Of a DNA stretch of 64,000 nucleotides, positions 12,379 to 64,000 are shown piece after piece (position 1 is the stretch's first letter; each line of letters begins with the position of its first letter). Source of the DNA: Bacteroidota bacterium (GTDB taxonomy: Bacteria > Bacteroidota > Rhodothermia > Rhodothermales > UBA10348); contig JAJCYP010000046.1 of NCBI GenBank assembly GCA_029262855.1, forward strand, positions 1-64,000. The letters run 5' to 3'. Below the pieces are notes generated by a model. It ran no database searches. It worked only from the letters and a program-made list of their open reading frames with translations, and was not told where the DNA came from. The position numbers and the translations under genes are program-made.

Positions 12379-12732
12379 ATGGCCACAGATATGATGTCCC
12401 TCATCGAGGGAACCCAACTACGCGACGATGTCCCCGAATTTTCGGCGGGCGATACCATCAACGTGCACGTCCGCGTGGTTGAGGGAGAAAAGGAACGCAT
12501 CCAGCAGTACCAAGGTGTTGTGATCGCGCTGAAGGGCTCCGAAGCCCGTCGCACGTTCATGGTCCGCAAGGTCTCGAATGGCGTTGGCGTGGAGCGGATT
12601 TTCCCGCTGCATTCTCCCAAGATTGCCAAGATCGAAGTCGTCCGTCGTGGACAGGTTCGTCGGGCGAAGCTCTACTACATGCGGGAGCGCCGAGGAAAGG
12701 CCGCCCGTATCAAGGAAAAGCGCACGCGCTAG
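12379..12732 (+). CDS. rplS: 50S ribosomal protein L19
   Basis: The 117-residue L19 lies at the 30S-50S interface. The conserved core [33 protein letters not shown], and [17 protein letters not shown] with the ending [19 protein letters not shown] are all present. A Shine-Dalgarno GGAGG is visible at 12367-12371, seven bases before the ATG. It ends the translation cluster; two hairpins lie immediately downstream. Confidence 0.98.
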
Positions 12733-12740
12733 TCGAGATC

Positions 12741-12821
12741 CGGCGGGCGTATCCCGCCGACTTCGAAGACCATCTGAGTCTGTCACGGAAACCGTCGGCG
12801 CATTGCGTGGACGGTTTCCGT
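12741..12821. repeat. Two strong inverted repeats after rplS
   Basis: CGGCGGG (12741-12747) and CCCGCCG (12753-12759) form a 7-bp stem with a five-base loop just after the rplS stop. ACGGAAACCGTC (12785-12796) and GACGGTTTCCGT (12810-12821) form a perfect 12-bp inverted repeat with a 13-base loop whose right arm ends 13 bases before the next ATG (12835). Neither is followed by a clear T run. The first could be a weak terminator or a 3' stabiliser for rplS mRNA; the second could be an operator or a structured leader of the MqnA-like gene. Confidence 0.5.
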
Positions 12822-12834
12822 ACGTATTAAGGTT

Positions 12835-13629
12835 ATGAGCGATAGCAAACGACTCCGCATATCCATCTGGGATGACCCGAGGCTTCGGGCCTTCGGCGAA
12901 GCCCTGAAATCTGACCAGACCGAGGTCAGTTTCGACACCCGGGAGGCGGGCGCCCGGCGTCTGGGTGCCGGTCTGGTGGACATGGCGCTGATGCCCGCGA
13001 ACCTGGCCGTGGATCTGTCTGAGGACTTCGATGTGCTCCCGGCAGTCGCGTACTCCGGATGGTCCACGCCTCACGCCAGGATTTCGCTGCGAGAGGGCTT
13101 CCAGGGCCGGCCGGAGTCCCTGTATTGTGCCGACCCAACGGCGCTTGAGGCCCAGGTTGCTCGGATTGTGCTTCAGGAGCACTACGGCATCGTCCTAAAC
13201 CTGGAGCCCCTCAATGGCCCGGCGGCAGCCTCCGACGCCGACGCCATTCTGGCCTTTGATGAGCCGGCACCGAATGACGGGAGCTTGACCCTGGATCTCG
13301 GCCAGGAGTGGTACGAACTCACGAACTACCCGATGGTCTGGGGTCTGTTTGTGATGCGAGAGGGCGAACTCGACGCCGGTGTAATCGGGGTGCTTCGCGA
13401 GGCCGCAGCGTCCGTCGAATCCGCCGATCACCTGGACGGCACCGTCCCCGGCGAAGACGGAATGGGGCTCCCCCGATTCCGCTTCGACGACATCGTCACG
13501 GCCAGCCTGACTGAACTCTGCCGGCACCTCTACTTCTACGGCGTCACCTCGGAACTCAGGGAGGTCGAACCGGCCAAGGTGTCTGAAACGGCGGATATCG
13601 GGAACGACACCCGTGACCCGATGCTGTAG
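12835..13629 (+). CDS. MqnA/MqnD-family (menaquinone, futalosine pathway) solute-binding-fold protein
   Basis: The 264-residue protein resembles the MqnA/MqnD family: the N-terminal RISIWDDPRLRAFGEAL, LGAGLVDMALMPANLAVDL and the characteristic LDLGQEWYELTNYPMVWGLFV (compare the DLGEEW...TGLPFVFA motif of MqnA). MqnA dehydrates chorismate to 3-enolpyruvylbenzoate in the futalosine route to menaquinone. Only the overall pattern matches, and the N-terminus lacks the usual NARPL motif, so a divergent or repurposed member is possible. No signal peptide is present. It abuts smpB directly, the next ATG following its stop codon without a gap. Confidence 0.65.
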   Translation: MSDSKRLRISIWDDPRLRAFGEALKSDQTEVSFDTREAGARRLGAGLVDMALMPANLAVDLSEDFDVLPAVAYSGWSTPHARISLREGFQGRPESLYCADPTALEAQVARIVLQEHYGIVLNLEPLNGPAAASDADAILAFDEPAPNDGSLTLDLGQEWYELTNYPMVWGLFVMREGELDAGVIGVLREAAASVESADHLDGTVPGEDGMGLPRFRFDDIVTASLTELCRHLYFYGVTSELREVEPAKVSETADIGNDTRDPML

Positions 13630-50088: not shown

Positions 50089-50649
50089 TTATTGGTCAGA
50101 ACGGTTCATCACCAGAGTCGAGGGGTCCCCGAATCGATCGGAGATCACGGTAGTGCCTCTGGACACAGGGAAATCAAGGTCGGTGTCGAGGACTATTCTG
50201 CCCCCCTCGAGTCTCCCAAACATGGCACGTGGATACGCACACCCCGAGATCCTGAAGTCAGAGAGTCTTGATCCGGAGCGCGTTCCCGAGACCGTGGCTT
50301 CTTCGGTCAGGTCTGTTCGAGTTTCTTCGCCATCAGGGTGCCGGATGCTGATGGCCGTTCTGGTACAGGAGCCCGATCCGGAAACGTCACCGTCTACGTC
50401 CTGGACAGTCACCTGGCCCGTAACCGAAAAGCGGAGTTCCTCCCAGCGGTCAGGCTGTAGGACAATCGTCTCGAAGTAGCCGTAGCTGTTTTCGAACCGG
50501 TACGTGCCGCTGGCGTCGTCCTCATCGCCGGCCAGTCCACAGCTCGTCAGTCCGCAGACCGCCAACAGGGCGATGGCCAACAGCGGGAGGGCCCGCCGCC
50601 CAGGTCCGACCCGTTTACTCCTAGAGGCTGCCAAATCGATCGCGGACAT
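50089..50649 (-). CDS. Lipoprotein of unknown function, coupled to lptD
   Basis: The 186-residue protein starts at an ATG that lies 29 bases inside the 3' end of lptD. It has a lipoprotein signal (ALPLLAIALLAVCGLTSC, Cys37). The mature part is beta-rich (GTYRFENSYGYFETIVLQPD, TDLDFPVSRGTTVISDRFG), with two more cysteines that may pair. No family is recognised. Its place next to lptD suggests an outer-membrane role, though nothing in its sequence resembles LptE. Confidence 0.75.
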   Translation of the reverse strand: MSAIDLAASRSKRVGPGRRALPLLAIALLAVCGLTSCGLAGDEDDASGTYRFENSYGYFETIVLQPDRWEELRFSVTGQVTVQDVDGDVSGSGSCTRTAISIRHPDGEETRTDLTEEATVSGTRSGSRLSDFRISGCAYPRAMFGRLEGGRIVLDTDLDFPVSRGTTVISDRFGDPSTLVMNRSDQ

Positions 50650-53314
50650 CTGATTTGGGCTGACGAATCCGCAGGAGGTCGCGGAGGTGACTGCTCTTGA
50701 CGTGCAGGTCAAAGCCCCAGGACTGGTAAAACCCGGTTGGAATCCAGTTGAACGACATCTGCCAGCAGTCAAAGTCGCGGGCCACGGCGAGGTTTGTCGT
50801 GGCGATTTCCATCTTCTCAAGATCGTAGCCGCCCCGGCCGGTGACCTTCCAGTTTGGGGTGAGGGAAAAATCGAAGGAAGCATTTACGACGGCCCGCTTG
50901 GTGGAGGTGAGCCCCGAACGATTGAGCCCGTAGGTGAAGTCCAGCCCCAGCGACCAGGGGATGGCGAAGTCGGTTTGAGGGCCGCCAAACGGCTGCTGAA
51001 AACTGTCGGCAAGCGTAGATGCACCCAGTGGGGACGCCCCGGGATTGCCCGAAAAACCAGCCCTGGGTGTGGTGAGTGGCCTGCTCTCGCCACGCGAGGT
51101 TTGGCTGCGAAGTGAGGTCCGCAGCGTCATGCTCACACTGGTCAGGCGTCCCAGAGGAGTTGAGGCCCCAAATGCGTACTCGTTCCTGGTCTGGCCCGAT
51201 TCGTTGAGCCGGTAGGGCGAGAACGAGGAACGAACATCCAGGTCGACCTGGCCCAGAATCTTGGTTCGGGCCGAAAGGGATATGGGACCGAATCCCAGCG
51301 AGTCCGCAGCGTAATTGAAACTGCTGGCCAGATTGAGGTCGAACAGCTTCACGGGCCGGCTCTGGGCCGATGCGGCAGAGTCAGCCGGAGCCCGTTTCGT
51401 TTCAAAGGTGTTGGCGAGCGAGAAGGTGAGCGACTGCTGCTCGCCGCGGGTGACGCCCGGGACGACGGCGTACTCGACCTCATCGCCATTGGCATCCGTG
51501 TAGGATTTAATATTGGATCCGGAGAACGAGTCCGGTCGATATCCGAAGCCGACACTTGGCCGTACCGTGTGACGCAGACCCCGGTACGCGCCCAGCTTCA
51601 GCGGGAAGATCCCGTAGAATACCGAGGACGCGGACATACTCGCGGTGTACTGCCGAAGGGCAAAGAACTCGGGCACCGTACTGGTTTCCACGCTTCCAGT
51701 GCTGTCGTTGAACACCCTCTCGTCCGTCCGCAGGTACCAGTTCTCGGTGTAGGATAGACTGGGAGAGAGGTTCATCCGGAAGTCCCCCAGCAGCGGCAAG
51801 CGGCTGACAGAAAAGGGAGCGGAAACCGGAATCCGGTGGGTGGCCTTGAAATCAAACCGTTCCTCAGAGCCCGTGGCCCGGACAAAGTCTTCCTGCGAGA
51901 GCAAGGCATCGATCCAGTCGATCCCCACGGCGGAGGAATCGCCTGCGCTGATCAGCGCATCATCCGACAACGGCGTGAAGTCGAACCTATTGTCCGCCGA
52001 CATGGTGTAGCTGACGGTCACTTTCTCATAGAATCGCTCGCCTGATCCCGGCGGGCGTGTGGAGCGCGCGAACGGCTTGAACGAGTTCTGGGAAAAGGAC
52101 AGACTCGGCAGTCCAAGTTGAACGGATCCCGAAGTGACCGCCTGCCGATGAGTACCGTTGATGGTCAGGCTGCGGGAACGCCAGCGTTTCGCGTACCGGA
52201 CACTGGACTGAATGGACTGGGTTACACGATCTGTGTAGTCCTGGGACACGCCCCGGAGGTAGCCGCTGGAGGACAGGTTTACGTTGGCGTCGAAGTTCGC
52301 CGTCGGACTGATGGTCTGAGCATGGTTCCATCGGAAGGACCCGGTATTCAGAATCGCAAACGCCGGGTCACCGCGAACCCCCTCCCGAAACCTCCCCATG
52401 TTCAGACCGACCTGACCGCTGAAACCGTATCGCCTGGCGTACCGGAAAAGCGAACTTCCCTGAATGCTGCCCTGGGTCCAGAAGCCGCCCTGAAGCTGCA
52501 GGTCCATGTAGTCGTTCAGCGCAAAGTACCAGCCCCAATCGCGAAGGTAGAATCCGTTCTGGTCCTCGCCGTAGCTCGGTGGGAGGGGGCCGCTCCGGCG
52601 ACCCTCCTGGGCCGGGAGAAACCCGAACGGGAGCCACAGCGGTGTCGGGATGTTGAACAGGTACAGCTGGATGGGGCCCGTGTAGATCCACTTCTGATTG
52701 ACAATCTTCATCTTGCTCGACCGGAGGGAGTACGAAGGGTCGTCGATGCACGGGCAGGTTGAATACGCGCCGTTCCTGATATACAGGGTCGAATCTTCGG
52801 TAGCCTTGACCACGTCCGCCCGCACAAAGCCCTCCTGAACCTTGGTCCGGGCCTCGACTACCCGTCCACGCTCGGTGCGCATGTTGAAGGCCAGCTGGTT
52901 ACCGGTGAACGTCTCCTCGCCCTGGCGAAACTCAGGGAGCCCTACCATCCCGGTGTCGGTCTGGAGTCCCTGCGCCTGAACCTCCTCGATATCGAAGAGC
53001 ATATCAATGCGCCAGGCCCTGAGAGCCACGTTGTCGTAATCGACGGCGGCCTGTCCAAAAAGAGAGCCGAGGTCCGTGCTCCCAAACGTGATGGTCATCG
53101 AATCCGCTGCCACGAACTGAACCGGTCCCTTCAGGTCGCGGCCAGTCCGGTTGGCCTGACCGCTTCGGGTCATCGGAGGCGTACTGGCTGACGATACCTG
53201 TGCGCTGGCCTCGAGCGCGGTGAAAAGGCCCCAGGCGCAGAGGGCCAGTAGCCCAAGCGTGCGATAGGCGATGGCGCTAAGCACTCGTCCCAGAGGCCGA
53301 CCGGTCATCCGCAT
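50621..53314 (-). CDS. LPS-assembly/OstA-like outer-membrane protein (LptD-like)
   Basis: The 897-residue protein has a signal peptide (LGLLALCAWGLFTALEASAQ), an N-terminal OstA-like beta-jellyroll region (about 50-190, QFVAADSMTITFGSTDLGSL), then AYSTCPCIDDPSYSLRSSKM and LYLFNIPTPLWLPFGFLPAQ, a stretch seen in FCB-group LptD proteins, and a long barrel to the C-terminus. LptD inserts LPS into the outer leaflet. The ATG at 53314 is used (53308 is also possible); both overlap the ROK gene's stop. LptA, LptB and LptC are not seen nearby. An LptF/G permease is encoded 3.6 kb away. Confidence 0.85.
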   Translation of the reverse strand: MRMTGRPLGRVLSAIAYRTLGLLALCAWGLFTALEASAQVSSASTPPMTRSGQANRTGRDLKGPVQFVAADSMTITFGSTDLGSLFGQAAVDYDNVALRAWRIDMLFDIEEVQAQGLQTDTGMVGLPEFRQGEETFTGNQLAFNMRTERGRVVEARTKVQEGFVRADVVKATEDSTLYIRNGAYSTCPCIDDPSYSLRSSKMKIVNQKWIYTGPIQLYLFNIPTPLWLPFGFLPAQEGRRSGPLPPSYGEDQNGFYLRDWGWYFALNDYMDLQLQGGFWTQGSIQGSSLFRYARRYGFSGQVGLNMGRFREGVRGDPAFAILNTGSFRWNHAQTISPTANFDANVNLSSSGYLRGVSQDYTDRVTQSIQSSVRYAKRWRSRSLTINGTHRQAVTSGSVQLGLPSLSFSQNSFKPFARSTRPPGSGERFYEKVTVSYTMSADNRFDFTPLSDDALISAGDSSAVGIDWIDALLSQEDFVRATGSEERFDFKATHRIPVSAPFSVSRLPLLGDFRMNLSPSLSYTENWYLRTDERVFNDSTGSVETSTVPEFFALRQYTASMSASSVFYGIFPLKLGAYRGLRHTVRPSVGFGYRPDSFSGSNIKSYTDANGDEVEYAVVPGVTRGEQQSLTFSLANTFETKRAPADSAASAQSRPVKLFDLNLASSFNYAADSLGFGPISLSARTKILGQVDLDVRSSFSPYRLNESGQTRNEYAFGASTPLGRLTSVSMTLRTSLRSQTSRGESRPLTTPRAGFSGNPGASPLGASTLADSFQQPFGGPQTDFAIPWSLGLDFTYGLNRSGLTSTKRAVVNASFDFSLTPNWKVTGRGGYDLEKMEIATTNLAVARDFDCWQMSFNWIPTGFYQSWGFDLHVKSSHLRDLLRIRQPKSDVRDRFGSL

Positions 53315-54263
53315 CGTGGAAGACCAGATGGGCAGCGCCAAGCACGCCGACCTCATTTCCTCTGGGTTCCTGGATGATCTCAATGCCCTCTCTCAGACCG
53401 TGGGTTACATACTGCAGAATGGTGCTCCTGGCGGCGTCAAAAATGAAGTCGCCGGCTGCCGAGAGGCCGCCTCCCACCACGAGCTTCCGGATATCAAGCA
53501 AATTAACGGCCGAACCGAGGAGGACGCCCAATTTGTGGCCCGCCCAATTGAGGATCTCACGTGCCGTCTCGTCACCTTGAACGGCGGCATCGTAGATGAG
53601 CCGGGGTTCCAGCTCTCCCTGGGATGCGAGCAGGTCGTTCAGGCTCGACGCAGGGTTTTGCCGAGCCATCCGGGCGGCGTGTACAGAAAGAAAGCGTTGC
53701 CCCAGATAAGCTTCCGACGCTCCACATATATCGTGATTGTCGGCTGGACCGTCGTAGTCGATGGTCATGTGCCCAAGTTCGCCTGCTCCGCCCGTCGCAC
53801 CCCGAAAAATGCGGTTCCGATATATGATGGCGCCGCCGACTCCTGTCCCCAGCGTCACCATGATGAAGGAATCGAAGCGCCTGCCGGCGCCATAGTGTGC
53901 GCACCCGAGACCGGCAACATTGGCGTCGTTTTCCACCAACACCCGGACAGGCGTTCCGATGAGGGGAGACAGGGAATCCCCGAGGTGGATGGATGTCCAG
54001 CCGGGGAGGTTGGGTGGCTGCGAGACGGTGGTTCGATCCCAATTGATGATGCCCGGACTGCCGACTCCCACGCCCAGCACCGGACTCTCGGCCCGGTCCA
54101 GCATCAGTCTGACCAGTCCGGCCATGTTGGCCAGCACCGCGTCGGGTCCGCGATCCGCCTCGGTATCACAGTGGGCGGTGTGCACAAGACCATGCCCCCG
54201 GGAGACCAAGGCGCACTTTATTGAGGTGCCGCCGAGGTCAACACCAATGGCCAACTGATCCAT
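53277..54263 (-). CDS. ROK-family sugar kinase with degenerate zinc motif
   Basis: The 328-residue protein has the ROK nucleotide-binding motifs IGVDLGGTSIKCALVS, VLVENDANVAGLG and VTLGTGVGGAIIY, and the segment TGGAGELGHMTIDYDG. These are glucokinase-type or N-acetylmannosamine-kinase-type enzymes. The cysteine cluster CxCGxxGCxE that binds zinc in most ROK proteins is missing; the region reads DNHDICGASEAY, with one unrelated Cys. Zinc is therefore probably not bound in the usual way. It abuts the ftsB-like gene with no gap, and lptD overlaps its 3' end. Confidence 0.85.
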   Translation of the reverse strand: MDQLAIGVDLGGTSIKCALVSRGHGLVHTAHCDTEADRGPDAVLANMAGLVRLMLDRAESPVLGVGVGSPGIINWDRTTVSQPPNLPGWTSIHLGDSLSPLIGTPVRVLVENDANVAGLGCAHYGAGRRFDSFIMVTLGTGVGGAIIYRNRIFRGATGGAGELGHMTIDYDGPADNHDICGASEAYLGQRFLSVHAARMARQNPASSLNDLLASQGELEPRLIYDAAVQGDETAREILNWAGHKLGVLLGSAVNLLDIRKLVVGGGLSAAGDFIFDAARSTILQYVTHGLREGIEIIQEPRGNEVGVLGAAHLVFHDADDRSASGTSA

Positions 54264-54607: not shown

Positions 54608-57252
<2,645 letters not shown>

Positions 57253-57294: not shown

Positions 57295-58590
57295 TCAGCC
57301 GAGTTGGCGGCGTGCGAACCAGCGTTCTGCAAAGTTGACGTTGATCCCGATCCTGAAGTATCGATCGCGAACCAGACTCCCCGTCGCAGTGCCTCTGGTG
57401 CCCACATCCAGATTAATATCAATCCTTGTGCCGGCATTCAGTGTCGGGAGGCTCACGCCGCTTGTAATGCCATAAGAGTTGACCCGCTGGCCAGCAGCAG
57501 GAGAGATGTAGCCGGACTCCGTAAACGCGCCCAATCGATACGCTGTCCGCTCCATGAATGAAGCAAGAAGATCGCGACCCGCCGGAAAGTATTCAATTCC
57601 GCCGGAGACACGAAGCCGGTCATCGGTATTGGATTGTCCTCCGGCCGTGTATCCCGGGAAGCTGAGATCGCTCGAGAAGTTGCTCCATGGTTCGAAACGG
57701 AGGTCAGCGTTCATCGAGATCTTTGCGCTGGGCTGGTAGAGAACCCCGAGCCCAACCGACAGCGGTATCTTCGTCGAACCTGTAATCTCACTGCTCAGGG
57801 TGTCGGCGGTCAGGCCGCGGCCCTCGGCAACGACGCGCGTAGCGTCGAGCGTGGTAGGCAGATCCAACGTGAGCGCCACGTTAAAGAAGTCCGACTCGCG
57901 CAGCAGTCCCCTCAGAGAGAGGCGGCCTCCCAGACCCAGAGTGGCACCCACCAACCGGGTTGAGCGGACCACTTTCGCATCCACGTACCGGGCGTCCTGA
58001 AACACCGTCTCTTGAACATCCTCGATCAGGCCAAAAATCACGTCAGTCCGCAGTCCGAGGGACAGCGTTCGGTTCAACCGATAGCCAACGCCGGTGCTGA
58101 TGCGGTTCAGCCCTCCGCTGCCCTGGAATCTGGCGCCGAAGCTCTCACCCGAGTCAAGGGCATCGCCCAGATCCAGGGGCTTGACCACGTCGATGAGATA
58201 GCCGACCTGGCTCATCTTCGAAAAGCCGAGTGCCACACCCACCTTGTTGGGAATGAGCGGGATTCCCAGCGTCAGGCCGTCGAAAGAGCTGGATGACAAC
58301 TTGCTTTGAACGTCGAGCGCATCGGTGGTCTCGACGCCCTCGAACCTCATGCCCCCGGAGAGCCTCACCAGCCCCTGATCGCTCAGCGAGGCCGGATTGG
58401 CCAGGTTCGTGAAGGTCACCGAGTTGTAGGCCAGCCCTTCGCCACCCAACGCGTACGATTTTGAGGCGTAGTGCGGCAGCAGCTGTCCCAATCCGAATCG
58501 GGAGTAGACCGAGCCTTCACCCGACTGTTGGGCAAATGCCGTCGAACCCGTGAGGGTCGAGAGCAGGACAAATAGGAGAATGCGCCTCAT
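57295..58590 (-). CDS. OmpP1/FadL-type outer-membrane barrel protein
   Basis: The 431-residue product has a signal peptide (RILLFVLLSTLTGSTAFAQ) and then SGEGSVYSRFGLGQLLPHYA, SYALGGEGLAYNSVTFTNLA and NPASLSDQG, a pattern of barrel proteins related to OmpP1/FadL and to PorV-like proteins in FCB bacteria. The rest is a run of beta strands with a C-terminal NVNFAERWFARRQLG. The start overlaps the lipoprotein stop by four bases (ATGA), which indicates coupling. Whether it transports hydrophobic compounds or anchors secreted proteins cannot be told from the sequence. Confidence 0.8.
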   Translation of the reverse strand: MRRILLFVLLSTLTGSTAFAQQSGEGSVYSRFGLGQLLPHYASKSYALGGEGLAYNSVTFTNLANPASLSDQGLVRLSGGMRFEGVETTDALDVQSKLSSSSFDGLTLGIPLIPNKVGVALGFSKMSQVGYLIDVVKPLDLGDALDSGESFGARFQGSGGLNRISTGVGYRLNRTLSLGLRTDVIFGLIEDVQETVFQDARYVDAKVVRSTRLVGATLGLGGRLSLRGLLRESDFFNVALTLDLPTTLDATRVVAEGRGLTADTLSSEITGSTKIPLSVGLGVLYQPSAKISMNADLRFEPWSNFSSDLSFPGYTAGGQSNTDDRLRVSGGIEYFPAGRDLLASFMERTAYRLGAFTESGYISPAAGQRVNSYGITSGVSLPTLNAGTRIDINLDVGTRGTATGSLVRDRYFRIGINVNFAERWFARRQLG

Positions 58591-59693
58591 CGTTGGACGG
58601 GGGTTACGGCAAGGTGGAGAACCGGAGCCGTGGGCATCAGGATCACCGAGATCCCGTTGTCCGAGTCTGGCACCCTGAGTTCAAAATGATCCAACGCACT
58701 CTTTCCCCTCAACAGGACACTCAGCGAGTCGTGAAGTTGTATCGACTCGAACTGGAAATACGTTTCTCCGCGGGAGGCCAGTCCTATCGGCAGGCGAGTC
58801 CCGTCACGGGATATCCAATCCAACTGCAGTTGGGCGATGGCGGGTCTGGAAAAACCCGTAGGGGTGTTGACGCTGAGGGAGGTATCGGCCGGAACGCGGA
58901 CGAGTCCCCTGTTCAGCACGAGGGAAGTGGGTGCGCCAAATTGCGGGGTAAACGCGGCGGCTTGTGCCTGACCATCCTGAAAAATCAGGCCGCTGGATCC
59001 GGAGGATGGTCCCACCGGGTCAATCAACCTGGTAAGACTGCGCCCGGCGCTGAAGAAGGTCGTGTCTCCGGCGGTGACTAGCCGGATCGATGATCCCAGC
59101 ACCTGGGCCCCGAACACCAGGGATCGGGATTCGGTCGTGAGTTCGAAGCCGTGAAACGCGTCGCCGAAGGTCTCGCTCTTGAACGTGGTATCCCACCGGG
59201 CAATCCAGTCATCGGGGAGTGGAATGGCGAGCAGGGTGGACTGTGGGTGCTGCAGGGACTGCGTGACCACGTCACCCACGAAGATGGTCGTGTCCGAGTT
59301 CGTCCCAGTGCCGGACCATTCAAGATCCACGCTTCTCAAGGTGACGGTGACCTCTGTCAGCGAGTCGCCGTAGAGGTAGTTCGAAAGCAGGAGCAGGTCG
59401 GCCCGCTCAATGGGGTTGTTTTCGAAGGCCTGGGTGAACACACCGGGGGACACGAAGTCCAGATAGCCGCGAGCCTCGGTGGTGCCGAGTTCGGGATCAT
59501 CCACCGAGCCGAACAACGTCCGGGCTGCGTTGCCTGTGTTTTCAATGGCCGGAATGTACTCCGGTGCCGAGGATTGAACCTGGAGGACGTACGGAGTGCC
59601 AGACTGTTCATCCACGAGGTCGATCCCCACTGGGGCTGGATCGTCACAGGCGGCCACGGCCAAAAGGCAGAAGGCGAGAAGTAGTCGATGCAT
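58587..59693 (-). CDS. DUF4270-like lipoprotein
   Basis: The 368-residue product has a lipoprotein signal ending in LAVAAC (Cys16). The mature part begins DDPAPVGIDLVDEQSG and includes ERADLLLLSNYLYGDSLTEV and several beta-sandwich-like strands, close in pattern to DUF4270 lipoproteins of Bacteroidota. DUF4270 genes are often found beside a glycogen-synthase N-terminal-domain gene, as here. A large bulged hairpin lies 14-61 bases before its start codon. Function unknown. Confidence 0.65.
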   Translation of the reverse strand: MHRLLLAFCLLAVAACDDPAPVGIDLVDEQSGTPYVLQVQSSAPEYIPAIENTGNAARTLFGSVDDPELGTTEARGYLDFVSPGVFTQAFENNPIERADLLLLSNYLYGDSLTEVTVTLRSVDLEWSGTGTNSDTTIFVGDVVTQSLQHPQSTLLAIPLPDDWIARWDTTFKSETFGDAFHGFELTTESRSLVFGAQVLGSSIRLVTAGDTTFFSAGRSLTRLIDPVGPSSGSSGLIFQDGQAQAAAFTPQFGAPTSLVLNRGLVRVPADTSLSVNTPTGFSRPAIAQLQLDWISRDGTRLPIGLASRGETYFQFESIQLHDSLSVLLRGKSALDHFELRVPDSDNGISVILMPTAPVLHLAVTPVQR

Positions 59694-59706
59694 AAACTAG
59701 AGGGTT

Positions 59707-59754
59707 CGTTTCGCAACGATCCGGAGAGACCAGATCGTATGCCTCTGCGAAACG
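59707..59754 (-). promoter_or_regulatory. Bulged leader hairpin of the DUF4270-like gene
   Basis: On the minus strand, CGTTTCGCA (59754-59746) pairs with TGCGAAACG (59715-59707), and ACGATCTGG (59738-59730) pairs with CCGGATCGT (59724-59716) with one G-U pair, around the five-base loop TCTCT. A seven-base bulge GAGGCAT lies on the 5' side only. The 18-bp structure ends 14 bases before the start codon and has no T tract, so it looks like a structured 5' leader rather than a terminator. No known riboswitch class fits that I can see. Confidence 0.6.
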
Positions 59755-59804
59755 GAGCGCCTGGAGATCGCCAACGGAGCCAGCGCGCAGGTTTGTATCA
59801 CAGC

Positions 59805-59833
59805 AAAAACCCCATCGACAGGCGATGGGGTTT
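59805..59833 (-). terminator. Intrinsic terminator after the GlgA-N gene
   Basis: On the minus strand AAACCCCATCG (59833-59823) and CGATGGGGTTT (59817-59807) form an 11-bp stem with a five-base loop, followed by a T run, TTTTT including the last stem bases (59809-59805). It lies 45 bases after the stop codon. A nearly perfect palindrome GCCCTGCA-A-TGCAGGGC at 59838-59854 precedes it. The terminator separates the GlgA-N transcript from the lipoprotein gene, or attenuates read-through. Confidence 0.85.
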
Positions 59834-59877
59834 GCCAGCCCTGCAATGCAGGGCATGAAGTGAGGTTTCCCGGCTGC

Positions 59878-60639
59878 TCAGGCAGCCACGCCCGCCTGGA
59901 CCCGTTCGTAGACCGCCGAGGCAAGATTCATGTTGGCTTCAGGATCTTCGCCAAACTTCTGGGCACCGTTGGACGAATCGTGGGGTCCGAGGTGGATTAC
60001 GCCGTCTGCAAATGAGGCGCCGATTTCGGTGGGCTCCTTGCCGGACAGGGCACCACCTTTCGGCAGGCCGAAGTCTGTGACCATCTTGTCGGTGATCTTG
60101 CCTTCGAAGTCCACCGATTGGGGGGTGTAGACCACCTTGGCGTCGGCAAACAGGGCATGGTCGGCGTACTCGGTCTTCAGCAGGAAGGGCACCATCCCGC
60201 TGAGCCAGCCGAATGCGTGCACCACGTCCGGTTGCCATCCCAGGTTGCTGATGGTCTGGAGGACTGACTTGGCGTAGAAGATGGACCGCTCGGGGTTGTC
60301 CGCGAACAACTTGCCTGCCTTGTCCGCGAAGATGCCGCGGCGCTTGAACATGTAGGCATTGTCCATGAAGTAGACCTGAAGCCTGATCCCCGGGATGGAG
60401 GCCACCTTGACCTTCAGGGCTTCCATGGTTTCGCCCGTTGAGATCTCGGACCCGGACAGCCGAATGACCTCATGCAACCGATTGCGTCGCTCGCTGACGA
60501 TTCCGTACCTCGGCATCATGATCCGGGTCTCGACGCCGGCATTCTCATGCAGGCTTTCGGGGAGGGTCCGGACCAGTGTGGCGACTTCCGACTTATTGGT
60601 GAAGGGGGCTACCTCGTCCGAGACAAACAGGACCCTCAT
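59878..60639 (-). CDS. Glycogen/starch synthase N-terminal-domain-only protein
   Basis: The 253-residue protein matches only the first Rossmann domain of GT5 glycogen synthases: MRVLFVSDEVAPFTNKSEVA, the ETRIMMPRYGIVSERRNRL segment, ERSIFYAKSVLQTISNLGWQ and PDVVHAFGWLSGMVPFLL. The C-terminal domain that binds ADP-glucose is absent, and the gene ends normally with a terminator, so it is not simply truncated by a local frameshift. Proteins of this kind are widespread in Bacteroidota next to DUF4270 lipoproteins. Catalysis as a normal glycogen synthase is unlikely. A promoter lies about 220 bases upstream. Confidence 0.85.
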   Translation of the reverse strand: MRVLFVSDEVAPFTNKSEVATLVRTLPESLHENAGVETRIMMPRYGIVSERRNRLHEVIRLSGSEISTGETMEALKVKVASIPGIRLQVYFMDNAYMFKRRGIFADKAGKLFADNPERSIFYAKSVLQTISNLGWQPDVVHAFGWLSGMVPFLLKTEYADHALFADAKVVYTPQSVDFEGKITDKMVTDFGLPKGGALSGKEPTEIGASFADGVIHLGPHDSSNGAQKFGEDPEANMNLASAVYERVQAGVAA

Positions 60640-60952: not shown

Positions 60953-61384
60953 TTGCCAACCGACAATCGCCCAATCATACTCTTTGACGGGGTCTGCAAC
61001 CTCTGCAACGCAGCCGTCAATTACGTGATAGATCACGATCCACAGGCCCGGTTCCGTCTGGGAGCGCTGCAATCCAAAGCTGGAGCCAATCTTCTGGCGT
61101 CGGTCAGCTTGCCCGATGGGTTTCTGGAGAGCATTATTCTGGTCGAGGGTAGTGAGGTTTTCCTCCGGTCGGACGCGGCGATTCGGATTGCCCGAAGATT
61201 GACGGGACCGGCCCGCTATCTCTGGTGGACCCGGGTTGTGCCGCGATTTCTCCGCGACCCGGCATACCGCCTGGTGGCTCGCTACCGGTACAACTGGTTC
61301 GGGAAGCGCGACACCTGCCGGGTACCGACGCCGGAGTTGATGGACCGCTTTATTGACCCTGGGGAGGTTGCCCTTGCTGGCTGA
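60953..61384 (+). CDS. DCC-family (DUF393) thiol-disulfide oxidoreductase-like protein
   Basis: The 143-residue protein has the family signature ILFDGVCNLCNAAVNYVID, named for its Asp-Cys-Cys pattern, followed by RFRLGALQSKAGANLL and the typical ending with ARYRYNWFGKRD. DCC proteins are small thioredoxin-fold-like proteins of uncertain function. The likely start is the TTG at 60953, which puts the signature near residue 10. Its last 35 bases overlap the end of the convergent DUF4175 gene. Confidence 0.88.
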   Translation: MPTDNRPIILFDGVCNLCNAAVNYVIDHDPQARFRLGALQSKAGANLLASVSLPDGFLESIILVEGSEVFLRSDAAIRIARRLTGPARYLWWTRVVPRFLRDPAYRLVARYRYNWFGKRDTCRVPTPELMDRFIDPGEVALAG

Positions 61385-64000
61385 GCAACTCGAAGTAGCG
61401 CCGGATCAATTCCTCGTAGTCCGGGGCGTAGCCACGTTCCAGGGCCCGGATCAGGTCACGTCTCAGTTGATCGGCCTGCTCCGAGGCTGACAGCTCATCC
61501 GGGCTCTGACGGCTGATCTGGTCAGCGGATTGGCTTTCCCGCTTACGCTCCCTGCCGCGTTCCTGAATGGACCTGGAAGCCTCCAACAGTCGAGTCAGGA
61601 TCTGCTGCTGGCGCTGTACCGTCCGGCGCGAGAGTCTCTGTTGCTGCAACTCCTCGATGGTCTCCTGCATCTGCTCGGCGACCTTTTCCAGATCCCCCAG
61701 GGCCTCGTTCTCCAGGGAACGCTCGCGGCTGAGTTGACGGAGGTCCTGTCGGATCTTCTCTTGTTGTCCCCCCAGTTGACGCAGGCGCTGCTGCACGTCC
61801 TGAGAAAGGCGATTGCCCTGCATGTCGTTGAGCAGCTGCTGAACCTGCTGGTTCATCATCTGCTGCTGGCCCGCCATGTTCTGGAGTTGCTGCATCATCT
61901 GCTCCATGGACATGTTGCCACCCGAGCCCTGACCATTCATCATCTGGTCCAGCATATCGGCCAGCATGAGGGCGAGCTCGTTCAGATGCGTCATGGCCCC
62001 CTTCTGATGACCGGACGCTCGCCTGGCGGCGCGGTCGGTCATGGCGGCTGTCGCATCGGCCATCTCGCGCAAGGCCTCGCCGGCGTGCACCTGGACATCT
62101 CTCGACATCTGGGGGATGGAGCGGGAAAGCGACTGCAGGGAGTCTGAGACGTGACTGAGTCCCTCCGAAAGGCGAAGCTGCTGCTGTGCTGTCTGTCTCA
62201 GGCGAGGACTGTCGGCCGCCAACTGCTGGACCTCGGCCCGCAGGACCTCCTCGTCATTTGACAGGCCCAAGACATCGTCCAATGCCCGGCGAAGACCCGC
62301 CATGTTCATCTGCATCTGGGCGCCCTGCATACCCTCCTGCATTTCCTGAAGGCTCTGCTGGAGGTTTTGCAGATTCTGGCTCATCTCCTGCTGCTGTTCC
62401 TGTGCCTTCTGGAAATCCTCGCTGCGCATCTGCTCAGCGTTCTCCCTCATTTCCTGGGGCATCTCCTTGTCGCGCGTGTCGTCGGCCAGCTCGTCCATCG
62501 ACTCGTTGGGTGCCTTGTTGAGCTCCTCCATGCGCTCGGATATCTCCTCCAGCTTCTTCTCGAGCTGCTCCATTTCCTCGGCCGCACGTTCCTGCTCCCT
62601 GGCAAGGTCCTCGGCGCGCTCCTGACGTTCCTCGGCCGGCATGTCGCCTTCTGCCTTCAGGGGCTCCGTTTCCTCGGCCAGCTTCTCTTCGGTCTGCGCC
62701 AGGTCCTCCGCCCTGCGAGCCGCCTCCTCAAGATCCTGCTGCACGCGCATATTCTTGAACAGCTCCAGCGTACGCTCCATGCGTTGCTGGTAGAGGTTTT
62801 CGGAGAACTCGAACTCCTCCATCGCCTCCTGCATTTGCTGCTGGTTCATCTGCTCCATGGCCTCCTGAAGGTCCTTCAGGGCCTGCATCAATTCGGGCGT
62901 ATTGATCTCCTCGGCCACCTCCCGGAGTTCCTCAAACATGTTCAGCGTCTCCTCGCTGACCAGGTCGTTCTGCGCCATCTCCTCGGTGAGCTCCTGCATC
63001 TGCTCCGCGATCTTCTCGACCGATTCCTCGAGCGCCTTCTGCTCCTCCATCAACTGACTGAGGGCTCGCTCGTCCTGCCATTCGGCCTCAGTCTTTGAGC
63101 GAAGCTCCTTCTGCAGTTCCTCAAACCGTTCTCGAAGACGCTGGGCCTCGTCCACGACTTCCTCAAGCCCGTCTTCGGCTTGATCCTCCTTGTCGTCCAA
63201 TTTCTCATACCGCTCAGCAAGCGAGGGCATGCGAAGCCGAAACACTGCTGTTCGGGCCGTTGAGGCCCCTGAATACGCGTTGTTGTCCGCGACTTCCAGG
63301 TAATAGAGGTAGACATCGCCCGGAACCGGATCCAATTCGGTATCCCGAATCAGGCCCCAATCGAATGACCCGGTCTGCTCGAGGGCCGTGGCGGCGGCGA
63401 TAGGCAGCGGCATGACCATGAAGGAGTCCGAGGGCTCCCCGAAACGGCTCTCGTCAAGCCGGTAGTTCAGGTGCAATCGCGAGAAGCCGTAGTCATCCGA
63501 CATCTGCCAGCCGAGGTCCACCAGGGCATACTCATCCAGATCGACCGATGGCTCAGGAGAGATGAATCGAATCGAGGGTGCGGCATCCTGGGTGGCGCGG
63601 ATACGGTACGCGATGGGATCTGCGTTGCGCACGCCGTCCACAGAGACGACCTCCAGTTTCCAGGTGTCCTCGCCGCGGACTGTGAACTGGCCCGTCCAGG
63701 ACCGGCCACTTCCTGTCAGTTCGGTGGTGCGCCCGGAGCCAAAAAGCACGCTCGCCGACTCGATTTCCGGGCCGGTAAAGACCGCGTCCACCACTACACG
63801 GCTGCCCACGAGGGCGGTAACCGTTCCGTCATTGTCGGGTAGTCGGATGGGGGGGAGGCGCGTGTAGGCGGGATACCTCAACGAGGCGGACAACTGGGCC
63901 ACCACGGGGCGGTCGGTGACCGAGAGGGTATACCAGGCGGACTCGAACCGTCCCGCGCGAACCCGGTAATCAAGGGTCTGGCGGAGGTTGACCAGGCCGT
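61350..64000 (-). CDS. DUF4175 family protein, N-terminus beyond the window
   Basis: The frame is open to the right edge, so only the C-terminal part of about 880 residues is seen. An extracytoplasmic beta-rich region comes first (PTY-like DYRVRAGRFESAWYTLSV, SASLRYPAYTRLPPIRLPD), followed by a very long Glu/Gln/Met/Leu-rich coiled coil (about 62000-63250) and a final segment RALERGYAPDYEELIRRYFE. This is the DUF4175 layout, whose N-terminus carries two or more membrane helices. Function unknown; it is often placed near MoxR/BatA-like genes, which cannot be checked here. A GTG at 63905 is internal, not the start. Confidence 0.88.
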   Translation of the reverse strand, partial: GLVNLRQTLDYRVRAGRFESAWYTLSVTDRPVVAQLSASLRYPAYTRLPPIRLPDNDGTVTALVGSRVVVDAVFTGPEIESASVLFGSGRTTELTGSGRSWTGQFTVRGEDTWKLEVVSVDGVRNADPIAYRIRATQDAAPSIRFISPEPSVDLDEYALVDLGWQMSDDYGFSRLHLNYRLDESRFGEPSDSFMVMPLPIAAATALEQTGSFDWGLIRDTELDPVPGDVYLYYLEVADNNAYSGASTARTAVFRLRMPSLAERYEKLDDKEDQAEDGLEEVVDEAQRLRERFEELQKELRSKTEAEWQDERALSQLMEEQKALEESVEKIAEQMQELTEEMAQNDLVSEETLNMFEELREVAEEINTPELMQALKDLQEAMEQMNQQQMQEAMEEFEFSENLYQQRMERTLELFKNMRVQQDLEEAARRAEDLAQTEEKLAEETEPLKAEGDMPAEERQERAEDLAREQERAAEEMEQLEKKLEEISERMEELNKAPNESMDELADDTRDKEMPQEMRENAEQMRSEDFQKAQEQQQEMSQNLQNLQQSLQEMQEGMQGAQMQMNMAGLRRALDDVLGLSNDEEVLRAEVQQLAADSPRLRQTAQQQLRLSEGLSHVSDSLQSLSRSIPQMSRDVQVHAGEALREMADATAAMTDRAARRASGHQKGAMTHLNELALMLADMLDQMMNGQGSGGNMSMEQMMQQLQNMAGQQQMMNQQVQQLLNDMQGNRLSQDVQQRLRQLGGQQEKIRQDLRQLSRERSLENEALGDLEKVAEQMQETIEELQQQRLSRRTVQRQQQILTRLLEASRSIQERGRERKRESQSADQISRQSPDELSASEQADQLRRDLIRALERGYAPDYEELIRRYFELLSQQGQPPQGQ

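Follow-up and report, generated by a model that had tools for sequence, protein, structure and literature searches.

Why should a protein that consists only of the N-terminal half of a glycogen synthase be encoded beside proteins of the cell surface? The question is raised by a locus on contig JAJCYP010000046.1 of a Bacteroidota bacterium of the order Rhodothermales, of which positions 1 to 64,000 were analysed (64,000 nucleotides, hereafter the window). Genes for a half-length GT5 synthase (GlgA-N), a DUF4270-like lipoprotein, a barrel protein and a tetratricopeptide repeat (TPR) protein are all present there on the minus strand, as stated in an earlier note on this DNA, which described them as a block of unknown function. 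The lipoprotein and the barrel are, however, well supported by their sequences as BamH and BamG, and the locus is read, with a probability of about 0.8, as an outer-membrane-biogenesis locus of the Bacteroidota β-barrel assembly machinery (BAM), in which an overlapping bamH–bamG pair is accompanied by a conserved TPR gene and preceded by a GlgA-N derived from a full-length GT5 synthase. The features are, in minus-strand order:

59878-60639, minus strand: glgA-N, GT5 glycogen/starch synthase reduced to its N-terminal domain and apparently catalytically dead, 253 aa, without a visible export signal (PF08323, AlphaFold model, residue loss, clade)
59780-59830 (approximate), minus strand: terminator-like hairpin between glgA-N and bamH, AACCCCATCG...CGATGGGGTTTTT (sequence; similar in relatives)
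58587-59693, minus strand: bamH, predicted DUF4270 surface lipoprotein of the BAM complex, 368 aa (PF14092, profile match to chain 9hjm_G, N-terminus)
57295-58590, minus strand: bamG, predicted FadL-type outer-membrane barrel of the BAM complex, 431 aa (NF053685 and PDB chain matches)
55933-57252, minus strand: gene for an exported TPR protein with a C-terminal CxWIGExxxV tail, constant downstream neighbour of bamG (TPR matches, gene order, tail)

BamG and BamH in the BAM complex

The BAM core of Bacteroidota comprises BamA, BamD, BamG and BamH (PMC12611786). BAM structures containing BamG and BamH were published, and the subunits named, in October 2025, and they reveal that BamG binds BamA and that lipid-anchored BamH sits at the BamG–BamA interface, forming an extracellular canopy above the site where client barrels fold (PMC12611786, PMC12578637). 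The physical association of BamG with BamA is known in Flavobacterium johnsoniae, Bacteroides thetaiotaomicron and Porphyromonas gingivalis (PMC12611786, PMC12578637). Both BamG and BamH are essential in F. johnsoniae and are found in most other phyla of the Fibrobacterota–Chlorobiota–Bacteroidota (FCB) group (PMC12611786); B. thetaiotaomicron and P. gingivalis have the same BAM architecture, BamH being important there, but not essential (PMC12578637).

The barrel of the window shares sequence family and FadL-type barrel with the BamG of these complexes (Fjoh_1412; Bt4367; PDB 9hiv, 9hjm, 9n2d). It spans positions 2-396 of the 397 of NCBIfam model NF053685 (E 2.6e-72, 244 bits) and matches the solved BamG chains 9hiv_F (E 1.3e-26, residues 8-429), 9n2d_B (2.4e-20) and 9hjm_F (8e-15). 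The lipoprotein resembles BamH (Fjoh_0823; Bt4306) in sequence family, in being a lipidated surface protein and in its conserved N-terminus. Its lipobox, LAVAAC-DD, lies in the N-terminus LAVAAC-DDPAPVGIDL, where acidic residues follow the lipidated Cys as a surface signal, and a CDDPxxVGxDL N-terminus recurs, with variation, at the lipid-anchored start across the DUF4270 family. It matches the DUF4270 model PF14092 with an E of 4.7e-5 and 23.2 bits. The single sequence matches the solved DUF4270 chain 9hjm_G weakly (E 0.022), and a profile from 15 members of its own class, nine of which match PF14092, does so with an E of 5.5e-14. Filing the pair as BamG and BamH, core subunits of the complex, is well supported by this evidence. 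BamG would then stand behind BamA and hold the lipidated N-terminus of BamH, which would arch over the barrel-folding site; the window proteins carry the matching sequence features.

The genome holds one BamH and one strong BamG, together with BamA on the same contig (C46:87319-89661) and BamD on C126, so that all four BAM core genes (BamADGH) are present. A second, weak match to the BamG model (29 bits; G000:C5:1399-2115, loci L113 and L232) is probably another FadL-type barrel. The bamH and bamG genes overlap by 4 bp and are flanked by glgA-N and the TPR gene, whereas the locus tags of the core bamG and bamH are far apart in F. johnsoniae and B. thetaiotaomicron. An adjacent bamG–bamH-type pair, BamG2/BamH2 (Bt1785/Bt1786), does occur in B. 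thetaiotaomicron, in one putative operon (PMC12578637), but it is an accessory pair, undetected by proteomics. The window pair is the sole pair of its genome and should therefore be the core one. What the window offers is a single-copy, overlapping bamG–bamH pair in a distant class, plus two conserved partners.

Gene order across the phylum

Regions were fetched around GlgA-N matches, bamH being disregarded in the choice, and separately around BamG matches, and their genes were labelled with profiles built here; class names outside named contigs are inferred, Rhodothermia being judged from the named contigs L033 and L034. The simple longest-open-reading-frame caller masked some genes, namely the TPR gene of the window and glgA-N in L137, L142 and L161, where GlgA frames of about 270-290 aa lie at the masked places.

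Of 71 half-length glgA genes in these calls, some of them from nearly identical loci, 68 are followed by bamH as the first or second gene on their strand, which bears out the conserved GlgA-N/DUF4270 pairing stated in the earlier note. The exceptions are L146 (G002), L152/L191 (G007) and L125 (G096), and in G007 a bamH joins bamG at another locus. Throughout Rhodothermia, the class of the window, the order is glgA-N, bamH, bamG and TPR, so that the proposed extension to the barrel and TPR genes also holds; in Rhodothermales eno, ftsB, a ROK gene and lptD follow. One family (f11) has glgB, malQ and comA before the glgA-N cluster, which fits an old glycogen-gene context. The families with named Cryomorphaceae and Schleiferiaceae contigs (Bacteroidia) have a divergent panD–panC followed by glgA-N, bamH and glmS, and at another locus coaX, bamG, TPR and lptC, the TPR gene missing in some families. 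Deeper lineages show a full-length glgA (about 490-545 aa), a phosphatase of the HAD superfamily resembling GmhB, bamH and bamG, with a TPR gene in family f12 and in G132; glgA lies upstream in 13 of 19 of their BamG-centred regions. A glgA, whether full-length or half, has kept its place at bamH across most of the phylum.

The earlier note took these genes for a dedicated system, for example for surface polysaccharide or protein export. The conserved gene order agrees with this, as do the sugar- or lipopolysaccharide (LPS)-precursor genes, glmS and the GmhB-like phosphatase, in the clusters of other classes, and an export of surface lipoproteins by BAM itself has been a matter of speculation (PMC12611786). 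The barrel, however, is BamG, and in the BAM structure the N-terminal tail of BamG itself occupies its FadL-type lateral opening (PMC12611786). Like BamH, which is the DUF4270 protein, BamG serves general outer-membrane-protein assembly. A dedicated system is accordingly improbable, and BAM takes its place in the interpretation proposed here.

Two further associations were observed. In deeper lineages, T9SS (type IX secretion system) and BAM canopy genes are linked by position: porU (NF033707), usually with porV, lies divergently beside the glgA–bamH–bamG cluster in L195-L200, L210, L211 and L216. LPS-transport genes likewise keep company with BAM canopy genes in both main classes, as lptD (window 50621-53383, minus strand) ends the gene run of bamH, bamG and TPR in Rhodothermales, and lptC follows bamG and TPR in Bacteroidia.

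GlgA-N as a maintained half-enzyme

The glgA-N gene runs from an ATG at 60639 to a stop ending at 59878, and PF08323 (E 3.8e-40) is the sole match of its product above a Pfam cut-off. The AlphaFold model (pLDDT 76, pTM 0.82) aligns with a GT5 synthase over about 229 columns at 2.9 Å, and covers the complete N-terminal GT-B domain, the C-terminal sugar-nucleotide-binding domain being absent. The equivalents of E. coli K15, G17-G18, D137 and H161 (the KxGGL loop, catalytic Asp and His; numbering taken from alignments), which we take to be the catalytic GT5 residues of GlgA, have been replaced by N15, S17, E18, G144 and Q174. They are lost throughout the GlgA-N clade and kept at 86-100% in the bamH-linked full-length proteins, and the clade has fixed residues of its own, such as K78-V-A-S.

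These losses bear on the possibility of a split glycosyltransferase, in which GlgA-N would work with a C-terminal half encoded by another gene, an arrangement found in Alg13/Alg14. That GlgA-N is a complete N-terminal GT-B domain would suit such an enzyme. Nevertheless, the N domain has itself lost its catalytic residues, and no free C-half was found in the 15 genomes searched, all matches lying within full-length GlgAs and nine genomes having none at E 1e-8, a search that a very diverged C domain could escape. A split enzyme is therefore highly improbable.

The dN/dS of glgA-N against two near relatives is 0.09-0.11 (approximate, as dS exceeds 1), and half-length orthologues, up to 85% identical, are present in independent assemblies. 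A pseudogene is ruled out on both grounds, and so is a sequencing error at this locus, which the earlier note had allowed for. GlgA-N is also kept in 13 genomes of nine families that have neither another GT5 match above 60 bits nor GlgC above cut-off (G069, G029, G053, G057, G146, G186, G166, G072, G017, G045, G041, G178 and G190); a helper role in glycogen synthesis is ruled out by this persistence in genomes without recognisable GT5 GlgA or GlgC. Because of the lost residues, the low dN/dS, the missing C-half and the retention in these 13 genomes, GlgA-N appears to be a dead protein, maintained under strong purifying selection and independent of glycogen synthesis, in agreement with the earlier view of a maintained protein that is no longer an ordinary enzyme.

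Origin of GlgA-N

The full-length glgA that the earlier note advised searching for is present in this genome on another contig (G000:C8, 525-aa frame), and it belongs to another lineage than GlgA-N. In a tree of 143 N-terminal domains, 68 of the 69 half-length proteins form one clade (SH-aLRT 100), which groups with the bamH-linked full-length GlgAs and two from family f18 (SH-aLRT 98; 99 in a smaller set) and stands apart from the second GlgA of the genome; an origin from the latter is rejected (p-AU 0.001). GlgA-N may be nested in the linked full-length GlgAs or sister to them, as both placements fit (p-AU 0.40). The motif R51, L55, H56, R60, L61 is common to GlgA-N and the bamH-linked full-length GlgAs and absent from other GlgAs. 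The bamH-linked full-length proteins (best NCBIfam match NF010698/PRK14098, 'starch synthase') thus share gene position, clade and motif with GlgA-N, which has lost its C-terminal domain entirely and the catalytic residues of its N domain. Tree, shared motif and gene order together show that GlgA-N descends from the bamH-linked enzyme by these losses. The simplest reading is that the C-terminal domain was lost once, in place, before the two big classes separated.

The 69th half-length protein (L216 of G172, 12568-13434, 288 aa) is a second, independent truncation of a bamH-linked GlgA at the same locus, which suggests that this GlgA N domain is useful by itself. In L216 the phosphatase gene begins immediately after the stop of the truncated GlgA.

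This history changes the meaning of the pairing of a GlgA remnant with surface proteins, which had been taken as the sign of a coupled system: it was inherited from an ancestral glgA–bamH–bamG cluster, and therefore the pairing alone does not show such coupling.

Transcription of glgA-N and bamH

The lipoprotein gene is the next gene after glgA-N, as the earlier description of the two as directly adjacent would have it, but they are separated by 184 bp, in which a strong GC hairpin precedes a run of T's. A similar hairpin lies 3' of glgA-N in most Rhodothermales relatives examined, and for that reason glgA-N is probably its own transcript in this order. The promoter scan upstream of glgA-N gave only a weak minus-strand match (60885-60858). 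In the other main class, apparently Bacteroidia, the spacing is mostly below 30 bp, which fits an operon. Depletion constructs in F. johnsoniae rely on the promoter 5' of fjoh_0824, whose locus tag adjoins that of bamH (fjoh_0823) (PMC12611786); should fjoh_0824 encode GlgA-N, which the gene order predicts, both genes would share a promoter in that organism.

Several points weigh against the proposed assignment of the locus to outer-membrane biogenesis. The BamG score of 244 bits is slightly under the curated cut-off of 250, and the DUF4270 score of BamH is just under the gathering score of 27. The BamH model (pLDDT 55) is too poor for confirmation of the fold, the top matches in a fold search being growth-factor prodomains, which are not meaningful. 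Three half-length glgA genes are not beside bamH, and the terminator-like hairpin parts the two genes in Rhodothermales, so that their co-transcription is not general. Finally, GlgA-N and the TPR protein are not reported in purified BAM complexes.

The exported TPR protein

The TPR gene lies outside the interval 57295-60639 given in the earlier note. Family-model searches with the protein found TPR matches, and no named family above its cut-off. Its CxWIGExxxV C-terminal tail is kept across classes, and the gene is directly 3' of bamG in three separate groups. It is proposed, tentatively and at less than even odds, that this protein may be a periplasmic accessory factor working with BamG.

The BamG barrel and the BamH lipoprotein are of an already known kind. 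Neither the constant presence beside them of a dead, truncated GT5 protein and a TPR protein nor the way in which GlgA-N arose was found described in the literature searched, which was limited, so that unseen reports are possible, and no publication on the GlgA-N or TPR gene was found in it apart from the promoter use of fjoh_0824 (PMC12611786).

Possible roles of GlgA-N

GlgA-N, having no export signal, should not meet the surface BAM complex and would not be one of its subunits. At even odds or slightly less, it may act in the cytosol without catalysis, as a protein of binding or regulation, and its linkage to bamH, and to glmS in Bacteroidia, would reflect coordination with envelope synthesis. 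The main rival holds that GlgA-N is merely a historical neighbour, which took up an unrelated cytosolic role after truncation, its adjacency to bamH being a relic without meaning for outer-membrane assembly. The neighbourhood does go back to a full-length glgA in this position, the hairpin separates both genes in Rhodothermales, and glgA-N and bamH are apart in G007. On the other hand, glgA-N and bamH have stayed linked in 68 of 71 cases, while bamG left their neighbourhood in Bacteroidia, where the spacing of glgA-N and bamH is mostly below 30 bp. A mere historical neighbour is thus a serious alternative, although its probability is short of one half.

A more specific version of the regulatory proposal sees GlgA-N as a sensor or regulator in the cytosol, derived from a dead glycogen synthase, that would adjust the supply of a BAM canopy subunit to the carbon or amino-sugar state of the cell, with the TPR protein as an undescribed periplasmic BAM factor. 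This combination is rather unlikely, but if it were true, the two proteins together would add a layer of control and accessory factors to outer-membrane assembly throughout the phylum. GlgA-N, as a pseudoenzyme that apparently arose by in-place truncation of a glycogen synthase, and the TPR protein, encoded after bamG in distant classes, are testable candidates for further factors in the assembly of the outer membrane and of surface lipoproteins in Bacteroidota.

Neighbouring genes

The complete minus-strand order in the window is a DUF4175 protein gene, (divergent) DCC1, glgA-N, bamH, bamG, TPR, eno, ftsB/divIC, a ROK kinase gene and lptD. The DUF4175 protein (61350-63998, minus strand) is large, contains a very long Gln/Glu-rich coiled-coil stretch, and its position beside glgA-N is conserved in Rhodothermales.

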